From a virus, in the IMG/VR virus record IMGVR_UViG_3300046810_000171, positions 1-25,581 of that record: DNA of 25,581 nt, one strand, 5' to 3'. The translations under genes and the position numbers were made by a program. The notes below the pieces were generated by a model. The model was given only the letters and a program-made list of their open reading frames with translations, searched no databases and was not told the origin of the DNA. Position 1 is the stretch's first letter; the number at the start of each line of letters is the position of its first letter. This document shows, one piece after another, positions 8,596-11,355 of the stretch.

Positions 8596-8768
8596 GGTCC
8601 GATCTCCTCCGGCGCGACCAGCAGCGGGTCGACCGCGCCCAGCTCCTTGGCCTGGTGCTGGAGCTGGTCCAGGTTGCGGCGCATGGCGTTCAGCATGTTC
8701 TCTGCGACGTTCAGGCCGAGCCACAGGCCGAGGCCGGCGCCCAGGGCGAAAGCGGCGAGGGCGGTCAC
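8592..8768 (-). CDS. Small membrane protein between rusA and the Q-position gene
   Basis: This 58-residue protein has one transmembrane segment at the very N-terminus (ALAAFALGAGLGLWLGL, about residues 4-20), followed by a charged helix (NMLNAMRRNLDQLQHQAKEL). The GTG start overlaps the rusA stop in GTGA and its own stop overlaps the next start in TTGA, so it is embedded in a tight operon. No family is recognised. A spanin-like or holin-like job is possible by size, but the early-operon position speaks against lysis. Confidence 0.65.
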   Translation of the reverse strand: MTALAAFALGAGLGLWLGLNVAENMLNAMRRNLDQLQHQAKELGAVDPLLVAPEEIGP

Positions 8769-9241
8769 GCAGCCTCTCCCAGCAGATCCGCCTGCGGCTG
8801 CACCACCGGAATGCTGGTGATCGTCACGACCACGCGCGCCTCGCCGTCCGGCTCCATGCGCTCGGCAGTCAGGCGGCGCACCCACTTGTCGTCCTCGATC
8901 GCCACATCCTTGAGCGCGTCCAGCAGCACCTTGTTGGCGTTGTCCAGGTCCAGGCACTGCACGCCGTCGTCCCAGGCCGCGCCCAGCTTGCGCTGGCGGG
9001 TCTGCCAGTCGAGCGGGCGGTGCGGGTAGAGCTGCACGTCGATGCGCACGCGCCCGGGCAGCGGACGGCGGACGCCGGCGGCTACGCACAGCGCTTCGAC
9101 CTCGCCCTTATACGCCTTCGCCTCGGGCGTCACGTAGGTCAGGGACATCGCCTTGCGCGCGCCCTTGGCGGGGATCGTGCGCGTGGCCCAGTAGCGGTTC
9201 GCGCTGATCGGGTAGGGCAGGGTGAGGGTGATCGGGGTCAT
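8765..9241 (-). CDS. rusA: RusA-type Holliday junction resolvase
   Basis: This 158-residue endonuclease resolves four-way DNA junctions formed during phage replication and recombination. The N-terminal LPYPISANRYW and the central LDLDNANKVLLDAL...VAIEDDKWV carry the conserved aspartates of RusA (equivalent to Asp70, Asp72 and Asp91), so the active site looks intact. The length is slightly above E. coli RusA (120), with an extended C-terminus. The ATG start (MTPITLTL) overlaps the preceding stop in ATGA. A GTG two codons upstream is an alternative. The position in the replication operon fits the role. Confidence 0.93.
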   Translation of the reverse strand: MTPITLTLPYPISANRYWATRTIPAKGARKAMSLTYVTPEAKAYKGEVEALCVAAGVRRPLPGRVRIDVQLYPHRPLDWQTRQRKLGAAWDDGVQCLDLDNANKVLLDALKDVAIEDDKWVRRLTAERMEPDGEARVVVTITSIPVVQPQADLLGEAA

Positions 9242-9426
9242 TTCCACTCGCTCCGAGGCAGCAGGCGCGCCGCCAGCGTCTTGGTGTCAACTTCGATGCG
9301 TCCGTAATCGCCGTACTCGAAATATTCTTCGCAGAACTCATCACGCTTGCGTTCGCTGCGCGGATAGGCACCTTTGATGATTTCGTAGATGGCGTCTGGG
9401 CTTTTGAATTTGATGACGACCTTCAT
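9238..9426 (-). CDS. Hypothetical 62-residue phage protein
   Basis: The start MKVVIKFKSP has a strong AAGGAG site at proper spacing, and the stop overlaps rusA in ATGA. The protein has a predicted beta strand at the start and an acidic-aromatic centre (DEFCEEYFEYGDYGRIEV). No domain is recognised. Tight coupling with rusA suggests a role in DNA metabolism or only shared expression. Confidence 0.75.
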   Translation of the reverse strand: MKVVIKFKSPDAIYEIIKGAYPRSERKRDEFCEEYFEYGDYGRIEVDTKTLAARLLPRSEWK

Positions 9427-9484
9427 TCGTGTTCTCCTTGTCGTTGTTGTTGCCGCCCGGCTGGCCGGGCGGGGTGGTGGTGGG

Positions 9485-10351
9485 TCAGCCCGGGTAGTAC
9501 GGCTGGCTGTAGCCGGAGGCATCGCTGGCGGCGGCCGGCGCGTCGACGATCAGCCAGTCCTCGGCCAGCGCATCGCTGCCGCTGGGCGCCCAGGTGCTCA
9601 CGGTGTCGTCTGCGCCCTTGAGCGCGAGGTAGGCGTTGTACGGGACCAAGCCGCCGTCGCCGAAGAAAGCCTTGGCCGCGCCGGTCTGCGCCGGGTAGCT
9701 GTTGGCTGGCACCAGGTAGGCGAACATGCCCTTGCCGTTCCAGCCGGCGCGCGCCACACGATTACCAGCCTTGAGCGCGACCAGTGCGTAGCCGAAGGTC
9801 AGGCCGGAAGCGGGCATTGGCGAAGCGTCCGGCAGCGGCGCTGGGCCGGTGGCCTTGGCTCCGTCCGCGTAGGCCTTCGTCTCGATGCTGGGCGCGGCCT
9901 GGCCGTCGATGTGCGCCTGGTACACCTCGGCCGCCTTCAGCACATCCCGGTGATTGCAGATGCCGGGCGTGCGCAGGGCCATTTCGACGGCCTGGGCCCG
10001 CAGGTACGCAGCGTCACGTGCGCTGGCGCCGATGATTTGGCCGCCGCATGCCGTCGACAACTGAGTCTTCGGCTCATCGCCGCGCGCCAGTTCGGTCTCG
10101 GCCTTCTCCGCCTGCTGCTTCTGGTACGGCATCCAGTGCCACGACTGCAAGCAGCCGGGCTCCTGCTCGGGATCTGCGTGCGTGACGGTCGGCTTGTTGC
10201 CCCAGTCGGTGTCCGTGACGTTCAGCGGGAACACGTACAGGTCCGCATTGAACGGGCCGTTGCCCTTGATGACGATGGCGGGACGGACCTCGCCGTCGGC
10301 GCCGCGGTACCAGACGATGCGGCCAGGTGTCGGGGTGATGGTGGTGCTCAT
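9485..10351 (-). CDS. Three-part protein with C-terminal DUF2829 (Tad2-like) domain
   Basis: This 288-residue protein has three parts. Residues 1-80 (GRIVWYR...RPAIVIKG...LYVFPLNV...WHWMPY) are a small beta-barrel-like segment common in phage proteins. Residues about 93-151 are a short helical segment. Residues about 184-271 are a DUF2829 domain, seen in LTFGYALVALKAGNRVARAGWNGKGMF and in the ending WAPSGSDALAEDWLIVD. DUF2829 contains Tad2, a phage protein that binds the signal molecule of Thoeris defence and, in some members, CBASS cyclic nucleotides. The inference is that this phage can soak up a host immune signal. Single-domain Tad2 proteins are about 80-100 residues, so the N-terminal fusion is notable. 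ATG is preceded by GGAGAAGC. Confidence 0.88.
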   Translation of the reverse strand: MSTTITPTPGRIVWYRGADGEVRPAIVIKGNGPFNADLYVFPLNVTDTDWGNKPTVTHADPEQEPGCLQSWHWMPYQKQQAEKAETELARGDEPKTQLSTACGGQIIGASARDAAYLRAQAVEMALRTPGICNHRDVLKAAEVYQAHIDGQAAPSIETKAYADGAKATGPAPLPDASPMPASGLTFGYALVALKAGNRVARAGWNGKGMFAYLVPANSYPAQTGAAKAFFGDGGLVPYNAYLALKGADDTVSTWAPSGSDALAEDWLIVDAPAAASDASGYSQPYYPG

Positions 10352-10402
10352 GCTTCTCCTTCAGGTTGGTGCTGCGGTGGTGCGCTCGCGCGCGAAATGG
10401 TC

Positions 10403-10618
10403 TCAACGCTTCCTGCTGTCCCGCTGCCGAAACTCCGCCAGCAGTTCCTGCCCGCTCTTGGCGCCGTTCCTGGCTTCGAGCGATCCGGCGGCCACGAACA
10501 GGACGCACGGGCGGTCGTCAGCTTCTGCTGGCCTGTCGAAGCCAGTGCAGTGGCCCGTTCCCGTTTTCGCGGGGACGAACTTGGCGCAGGCGCCGCAGGG
10601 CGGGTGGTCGCGGTTCAT
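10403..10618 (-). CDS. Small Cys-rich, probably zinc-binding phage protein
   Basis: This 71-residue protein has CGAC at residues 8-11, then HC at 23-24, then Cys38 in DDRPCVLF. Four Cys and a His in this spacing suggest one bound metal ion. Similar short proteins are common beside lambda P-like genes in Burkholderiales phages. The start overlaps the upstream stop in ATGA. The biochemical role is unknown. Confidence 0.72.
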   Translation of the reverse strand: MNRDHPPCGACAKFVPAKTGTGHCTGFDRPAEADDRPCVLFVAAGSLEARNGAKSGQELLAEFRQRDSRKR

Positions 10619-11355
10619 GCCTGGCCAAGCGCCTGTCGTGCGAACAGCACTTGGGTCGGCGTCAGCCTCTCGCCGGCCTTGTGACGCTCCAGCAGCTTCC
10701 GGGCCCAGGCGGTGCCTGCGAACGTGTGCATGACCTGGTCGGCTGCTTGCTTGATCGCCTGGCGCGCCTTCTCGGTGCCGGTGGCCGACTTGCCGGGTGC
10801 AGCCAGCGCCTTCATTGGCCTCGGGATCTCGGCCCACTCGGTCTTCGCCAGCTCCTTCGCCAGCGAGGTTTCCCAGCGCGCGCGGACGTGGCTGTAGGCC
10901 TGCTCGCGCAGCTCGACTGCGATCGGCATGGCGGCCCAGTAGATCGCCGGGTGCGACCATTCGCCCATCTCGCCGTTGACGCGGGCCTGGACGCCGTTGA
11001 CGGCCTCGTAATACGCCTTGAGAGGATCCAGTGCGGGCCGGCAGGCCTGCATGAACTCGGCGACGCTGGGCGGCCAGCCGAAGCGCTTGCGGCACTCGCG
11101 CAGGCCGACCTTGACGTCGTGCGGCGTGATGCCTTCCTCCTCGAACGCTTCGACCCAGCTCTCGGCCCAGTTGTCGATCGCCTGCTGATTCTTGAAGTTC
11201 TGCCGCCACTTGCCCGGGTAGGCGCCGTCCAGGCGGTTGAAGAGGTGGTCGATCAGCGAGATGCCCAGGTCCGGCATCGGGTCGAACCAGTGCGAGAACG
11301 GGCGCGTGGTTGGTGCCGAGGGCAGATGGGCCGGGAAATCGGCGAGGTCGTTCAT
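10615..11355 (-). CDS. Lambda P-like replication protein (helicase loader)
   Basis: This 246-residue protein resembles the lambda P family, which captures the host DnaB helicase and delivers it to the phage origin. The N-terminal half (LIDHLFNRLDGAYPGKWRQNF, AIDNWAESWVEAFEEEGIT, LRECRKRFGWPPSVAEFMQAC) matches the family pattern well. The C-terminal third is more variable and Ala/Lys-rich. It follows the DUF1376 gene with an ATGA overlap, mirroring lambda O-P. No ATPase motif is present, as expected for P rather than DnaC. Confidence 0.88.
   Translation of the reverse strand: MNDLADFPAHLPSAPTTRPFSHWFDPMPDLGISLIDHLFNRLDGAYPGKWRQNFKNQQAIDNWAESWVEAFEEEGITPHDVKVGLRECRKRFGWPPSVAEFMQACRPALDPLKAYYEAVNGVQARVNGEMGEWSHPAIYWAAMPIAVELREQAYSHVRARWETSLAKELAKTEWAEIPRPMKALAAPGKSATGTEKARQAIKQAADQVMHTFAGTAWARKLLERHKAGERLTPTQVLFARQALGQA

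Follow-up and report, generated by a model that had tools for sequence, protein, structure and literature searches.

A phage protein joins a Tad2-like domain to modules shared with Acb4, RyR and crAss001_48 proteins

Gene content of the locus

The window analysed here is a 25,581 bp stretch of viral DNA (positions 1 to 25,581 of IMG/VR record IMGVR_UViG_3300046810_000171), and all coordinates refer to it. An ORF on its minus strand, starting from an ATG with AAGGAG ahead of it, encodes a 288 aa protein, as the first-pass annotation of the sequence had claimed, and the span singled out in that annotation (9485–9802) corresponds to residues 184–288 and the stop codon of this fusion protein. The protein had been called early, and the position of its gene, downstream of a P-like helicase loader gene and upstream of the RusA gene, fits a lambda-like early operon. 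The genes and protein modules are as follows.

8765–9247, minus strand: RusA resolvase gene (PF05866, E 2.1e-23), the downstream marker of the slot described below
9238–9426, minus strand: small gene (ORF) between the fusion gene and rusA, with a homologue in L006 (tblastn)
9485–10351, minus strand: fusion gene, 288 aa, consisting of an N-module, a helical hairpin, a linker and a Tad2-like domain (ORF, Pfam PF11195, AlphaFold2 model)
9542–9805, minus strand: Tad2-like domain (DUF2829, PF11195), residues 183–270 (Pfam, PDB sequence matches, VIA fold comparison)
9818–9889, minus strand: linker around ETKAYADGAKATGPAPLPDASP, residues 157–178, common to crAss001_48 and Acb4+crAss001_48 proteins (pattern scan)
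9902–10027, minus strand: mid-module, residues 109–150, a two-helix segment
10082–10351, minus strand: N-module, residues 1–90, an SH3/Tudor-like small barrel plus helix with the motifs PTxGRIVWYR and WMPYQxxQA (AlphaFold2 model)
10403–10621, minus strand: small cysteine-containing gene, the upstream slot marker, with homologues that precede the slot in L004, L005, L165, L168, L170, L188 and L191
10615–11355, minus strand: P-like helicase loader gene (PF06992, E 2e-12; phrog_109)

The early operon also includes a gene for a D12-class adenine methyltransferase (PF02086; 12155–13027), which may have an anti-restriction function. PADLOC returned no match.

An unusual setting for a Tad2-like domain

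The only Pfam domain in the 288 aa protein is PF11195, matched by residues 185–269 at 77.2 bits against a cut-off of 25 (E 1.5e-21), which is far above chance. The closest relative of solved structure is the Tad2 of Myroides odoratus (PDB 9eib, E 2.8e-25; 8v3e, E about 3e-25), followed by AcrIIA7/HgmTad2, SPO1 Tad2 and SptTad2, and the window domain is identical at 50 of 85 residues (59%) to the Tad2 in the M. odoratus XSfan locus (L088). The Pfam match and this identity bear out the earlier proposal that the last third of the protein is DUF2829/Tad2.

An AlphaFold2 model of the 288 aa protein, built from a 60-row alignment, had a mean pLDDT of 78, rising to about 87–97 in the Tad2 part; with a pTM of 0.49, it leaves open how the modules are arranged with respect to each other. 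The model is of a single chain, and Tad2 proteins assemble as homotetramers in which the ligand pockets lie between protomers. When compared using VIA-align, the Tad2 part matched solved Tad2s with Z of 12.8–11.2 over 73–90 residues, including 9eib (Z 12.3, 86 residues, rmsd 2.7, 58% identity), and the next group of matches was that of the N-module with Tudor barrels, at Z about 6.5. The residues common to solved Tad2s (GWNGK, MF and W..S..D.LA.DW), judged by conservation in pairwise alignments to those proteins rather than by ligand contacts, are kept at positions 203–210 and 253–266. The structural comparison that had been suggested as a check on the assignment thus found a predicted Tad2 fold with its conserved residues retained, and we conclude that the protein is a member of the Tad2 family in an unusual architecture.

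The N-module and its partner domains

The two extra segments that had been noticed beside the Tad2 domain are genuine modules. The first, described as beta-barrel-like, is the N-module, which in the AlphaFold2 model is an SH3-like barrel of five strands with a C-terminal helix and pLDDT mostly above 90. Its best VIA matches were Tudor-type barrels (Z 6.5, rmsd 2.2–2.8 over 55–59 residues), a generic level of similarity; Foldseek gave E 0.05 at best and a search of PDB sequences returned nothing beyond a chance-level match. An alignment of 14 N-modules, one of them 37% identical, contained 15 invariant columns.

When the N-module alone or its alignment was used as the query, leaving out the Tad2 part, the relatives returned carried differing C-terminal parts. 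Pfam recognised only PF11195 (nine proteins), PF21825 (five), PF13876 (three) and PF02026 (two) among 23 N-module proteins, counts that are descriptive and not frequencies because one protein, L028, was drawn from a search that included the Tad2 part, in which the first three families also turned up. The partners of the N-module in phages are a closed set of Pfam families, namely Tad2, Acb4, RyR and crAss001_48, found singly or combined. Acb4 is the partner in L163, L166 and L196, and RyR in L164 and L196. The 340 aa protein encoded by L196 (2007–3026) thus has an N-module together with two unrelated counter-signalling domains, Acb4 (PF13876) and RyR (PF02026), and it has matches to 9e4w, an Acb4 structure, as well as to RyR structures. 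As stand-alone N-module proteins are also found (L193, L194, L195 and L198), the module has a life outside this partner set. In L168, L172, L370 and L374, the front modules, here called the chassis, are present and the C-terminal part, or payload, is not a recognised one.

Two of these partners are characterised. PF13876 is Acb4, a 3'3'-cGAMP sponge, and all eight members tested bind 3'3'-cGAMP; extensions on several Acb4 members were remarked on as unexplained by the authors (PMC11722364). The phage PF02026 proteins, RyDEP, cleave or sequester cADPR signals, with binding seen for six of the eight homologues tested (PMC13232231).

Many Tad2 proteins have instead a second type of N-terminal module (IGTKxxNAxPMTR...GYVSWSP). 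In 27 such proteins, hand-picked for variety so that the counts give a range and not a frequency, Pfam found only PF11195 (19 proteins), PF21825 (eight) and PF13876 (four). This module behaves like the N-module in its partner set. In a 419 aa protein (L211, 1498–2754; the same gene is in L058), it is followed by Tad2, Acb4 and crAss001_48 in a single chain, and an Acb4 and Tad2 fusion is present in L234.

The same families are also found as neighbours. A separate Acb4, crAss001_48 or RyR ORF was present in 29 of 77 Tad2 loci, and 32 of 33 such ORFs were on the same strand and within 610 bp of the Tad2 gene. The loci extend up to 5 kb each side; these counts are descriptive, as the flanks are often cut short where a contig ends and the set includes near-duplicate loci. 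Genes resembling p26 (PDB 8h2j, E 3.9e-18), which we take to be Acb2, lie 15–110 bp from IGTK+crAss001_48 or Tad2 genes in L287 (970–1236), L052 and L202.

The mid-module, the linker and crAss001_48

The second extra segment, described as helical, corresponds to helices at residues 110–126 and 133–147, which form a weaker hairpin in the model (pLDDT about 56–74). A search with the window mid-module sequence alone found nothing, and homologues became visible only via L165, L168, L305 and L352. The mid-module recurs with Tad2 (L165), with crAss001_48 (L305, L352 and L365) and without a recognised payload (L168, L370 and L374). Scanning all ORFs for the linker pattern ETKxYxDG...G.APLP detected it in the window, in L165 and in two crAss001_48 proteins, L288 and L292. 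As the profiles were built from the same loci, the mid-module and linker counts describe this distribution rather than test it. With PF21825 considered as an identity for the mid-module, neither the window protein nor the record had a PF21825 match at the thresholds used, with one of these searches run without a positive control.

Among 69 distinct crAss001_48 proteins, 11 also match Acb4 and one Tad2; apart from these, a strong Pfam partner was seen in just one case, an ABC/AAA-type protein. PF21825 is repeatedly fused to, or adjoins, Acb4 and Tad2 (L268, L223, L206, L285–L364). It was found four times in 301 bacterial genomes, too few for use. The family is modelled confidently as a two-helix hairpin (mean pLDDT 93 over the whole L268 protein). 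In comparisons with PDB sequences and folds nothing matched specifically; the hits were helical hairpins of a generic kind (Z about 8), and kinship with Acb2 could not be shown. We consider crAss001_48 a candidate signal-binding domain of a new type or, alternatively, a hairpin that serves oligomerisation.

Different payloads in the same slot

In related phages, the position of the fusion gene is marked by the small cysteine-containing gene, followed by the payload gene, rusA and a Q-like gene, with some loci lacking one or other marker. The RusA proteins are 65–87% identical across the same-slot loci. The slot holds a mid-module and Tad2 in the window and in L165, Tad2 in L004, L170 and L188, Acb4 in L163 and crAss001_48 in L002 and L191, and in L172 the C-terminus belongs to no recognised family. 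When the same-slot loci were compared using blastn, DNA similarity extended from approximately 53 bp upstream of the ATG (in most, from window position 10404) to codon 83–86 or thereabouts. After this break it resumed, in most loci, at the stop codon and continued for 45–70 bp. The two boundaries in the window are as follows.

10352–10404, minus strand: 5' boundary, a conserved leader upstream of the ATG, with ACCATTTCGCGCGCGAGCGC at 10382–10401, continuous with the N-module coding DNA
9421–9488, minus strand: 3' boundary, the stop codon and an intergenic hairpin, CGCCCGGCCAGCCGGGCG, with a perfect copy at 9452–9471 (blastn, alignment, folding)

Within the window, the leader and the hairpin flank the fusion gene only. 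There is one copy of ACCATTTCGCGCGCGAGCGC, with 0.02 expected, and CGCCCGGCCAGCCGGGCG is found in one place, with 0.06 matches expected by chance. The hairpin folds with −17.6 kcal/mol (z −2.65) and is conserved in nearly all of ten aligned loci, including those with RyR and unrecognised payloads, with one arm missing from L191. The lack of a T-run after it keeps us from calling it a terminator. Among 16 hairpins located on viral contigs by a pattern scan that was independent of the domains, 9 followed genes with these modules and others followed genes of other kinds. The leader also preceded unrelated genes. The idea that the leader and hairpin are exclusive to these modular genes was therefore dropped. 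The two sequences look like gene-border sequences in this phage lineage, and they may drive the exchange of payloads by serving as homology. As one border lies within the reading frame, it would be part of a protein that is exchanged. Tad2 was not found elsewhere in seven related phage records that have a non-Tad2 payload, which is weak evidence as viral records may be fragments.

Several further genes were seen at these borders. L172 (2009–2647) and L375 have a related C-terminal part of the FDPDALVQNLVVGMLG type, in the same slot or ahead of the same hairpin, that is possibly a further payload; in L172 this part had no Pfam match. Genes of other kinds lie directly ahead of the same post-stop hairpin in L371, L372 and L377 and, by eye, the product in L377 resembles a PAPS-reductase-like protein and that in L372 a MazG-like protein. 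An FRKKPV... segment, of a kind frequent in phages, is fused to crAss001_48 in L300, L302 and L318, with the same leader and hairpin around it in L300 and L318.

A probable modular anti-signalling protein

We think it probable that the 288 aa protein is a modular anti-signalling protein with a payload that is exchanged as a cassette, in this case Tad2, a predicted sponge for an ADP-ribose signal made by TIR proteins. The SH3-like N-module and helical mid-module would be a chassis shared with proteins bearing Acb4, RyR or crAss001_48, and may support oligomerisation, avidity or placement of the payload. The payload would be swapped between phages as a cassette bordered on one side by the leader and N-module coding DNA and on the other by the conserved post-stop hairpin.

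The extra modules could themselves be ligand traps, making the protein a multi-specific sponge in which Tad2 takes the ADP-ribose signal and the N-module, the mid-module or both take another. Fusions of more than one sponge payload exist (Acb4 with RyR in L196; Tad2, Acb4 and crAss001_48 in L211; Acb4 with Tad2 in L234), and the N-module is also found as a protein on its own. However, proteins with very different payloads share the N-module, as would be expected of a chassis more than of a trap for one ligand. The fold similarity of the N-module is also of a generic level (Z 6.5), and the mid-module is a short hairpin modelled at low confidence. We regard a multi-specific sponge as unlikely.

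A little less likely still is that the N-module takes no part in trapping signals, its DNA being kept as a homology arm for recombination and the protein part being a passive fusion partner. The high DNA similarity across the leader and N-module, which ends sharply where the module ends, is what such an arm would look like, but the N-module protein is constrained, with 15 columns invariant in a 14-member alignment that includes a sequence of only 37% identity, and some genes encode the N-module alone. Both of these suggest that the N-module protein itself is under selection.

The predicted ligand

Returning to the Tad2 payload as a signal sponge, MoTad2 binds His-ADPR and SPO1 Tad2 binds gcADPR (PMC13299392), and PDB entry 9eib is, by its title, the hisADPR complex of M. 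odoratus Tad2. The binding of dinucleotides by Tad2s has been ascribed in a review to an insertion between beta2 and beta5 (PMC12043709). In pairwise alignments, this insertion, about 15 residues in HgmTad2/AcrIIA7, is absent from the window domain, which by length groups with ModTad2 and SPO1 Tad2. As the residues of solved Tad2s are kept, MoTad2 binds His-ADPR and the dinucleotide insertion is absent, an ADP-ribose-type signal is favoured. The C-terminal domain would sequester such an immune signal from the TIR proteins of Thoeris systems, and, with ModTad2 so close a relative, the likeliest ligand is His-ADPR; we put the chance that this prediction is right at about even. The first-pass annotation was correct as to the Tad2 family; it named gcADPR for a binding assay, whereas the closest solved relative binds His-ADPR.

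That annotation had also raised the binding of CBASS nucleotides, known for some family members, and HgmTad2 and SptTad2 can bind cyclic dinucleotides. The fold is the same, and SptTad2, solved as a cGG complex, had the top Z (12.8), tied with ModTad2 (12.3). However, the window domain lacks the insertion of the solved members that bind cyclic dinucleotides, to which dinucleotide binding has been tied (PMC12043709), and is in the length class of ModTad2 and SPO1 Tad2, the latter of which does not bind 3'3'-cGAMP (PMC11722364). A role against CBASS is thus very improbable, and we dropped this reading. Repurposing of the domain, for example as a protein–protein inhibitor in line with the name AcrIIA7, is more improbable by a shade. 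In its favour, the deposited entry for AcrIIA7/HgmTad2 describes a type II CRISPR-Cas inhibitor, but the window domain is 59% identical to the protein that binds His-ADPR and about 44% identical to AcrIIA7, and the residues common to solved Tad2s are kept.

Implications

Since other phages join the same front pieces to other alarm-disarming parts, these counter-defence proteins appear to be built of exchangeable modules. The sharing of the extra modules with other anti-signal proteins is new relative to the first-pass annotation. In the literature searched, which excluded most subscription papers, no relevant paper treats Acb4, Tad2 and RyR together and none mentions crAss001_48. The sponge families Tad2, Acb4 and RyDEP have so far been described singly, and this architecture links them as interchangeable parts.

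More broadly, and more tentatively than the ligand prediction, phages may assemble counter-signalling proteins combinatorially from a small kit of parts, swapping payloads at a fixed slot via DNA borders within the gene. The kit would include two N-terminal chassis, the helical mid-module, a mobile linker and the payloads Tad2, Acb4, RyR and crAss001_48. If so, anti-signal domains still to be discovered would include crAss001_48, the mid-module and unassigned C-terminal parts such as those in L172 and L375, and others would be found by way of the slot. The architecture itself offers a means of predicting new inhibitors of immune signals from sequence alone, as whatever sits behind these modules or in the slot. 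It makes PF21825, for which no function is known, directly testable, and it poses the question of what a sponge gains from the shared N-terminal chassis.

Comparison with known systems

ModTad2, from an M. odoratus prophage (9eib, 8v3e), is like the window domain in length class and predicted fold and is 59% identical to it, but is a free protein of 88–89 aa, whereas in the window protein the domain is preceded by a linker and the two extra modules. SPO1 Tad2 (8sme, 8smf, 8smg) is of the same family and fold and also lacks the long insertion; it differs in being a stand-alone gcADPR binder with about 42% identity. HgmTad2/AcrIIA7 and SptTad2 (8kbi, 8kbj, 8kbk, 8wjd) share the family and fold but are longer (101–104 aa), as they carry the insertion with which the binding of cyclic dinucleotides has been linked.

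Acb4 proteins (PF13876, 9e4w) share the N-module (L163, L166 and L196) and the genomic slot (L163) with the window gene, but their payload, the 3'3'-cGAMP sponge, has a fold unrelated to Tad2. RyDEP and other phage RyR-domain proteins (PF02026) have the N-module in common with the window protein (L164 and L196), and their payload, which cleaves or sequesters cADPR, is helical and likewise unrelated to Tad2. The crAss001_48 family (PF21825) shares the N-module, mid-module, linker and second N-terminal module with Tad2 fusion proteins, and differs from the Tad2 payload in being a predicted two-helix hairpin with no known function.

In lambdoid phages, short conserved boundary DNA is found at gene borders, with unlike genes between. 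The window slot resembles these boundaries in having short conserved border DNA around unlike genes, but differs from them in that one border is inside the reading frame.
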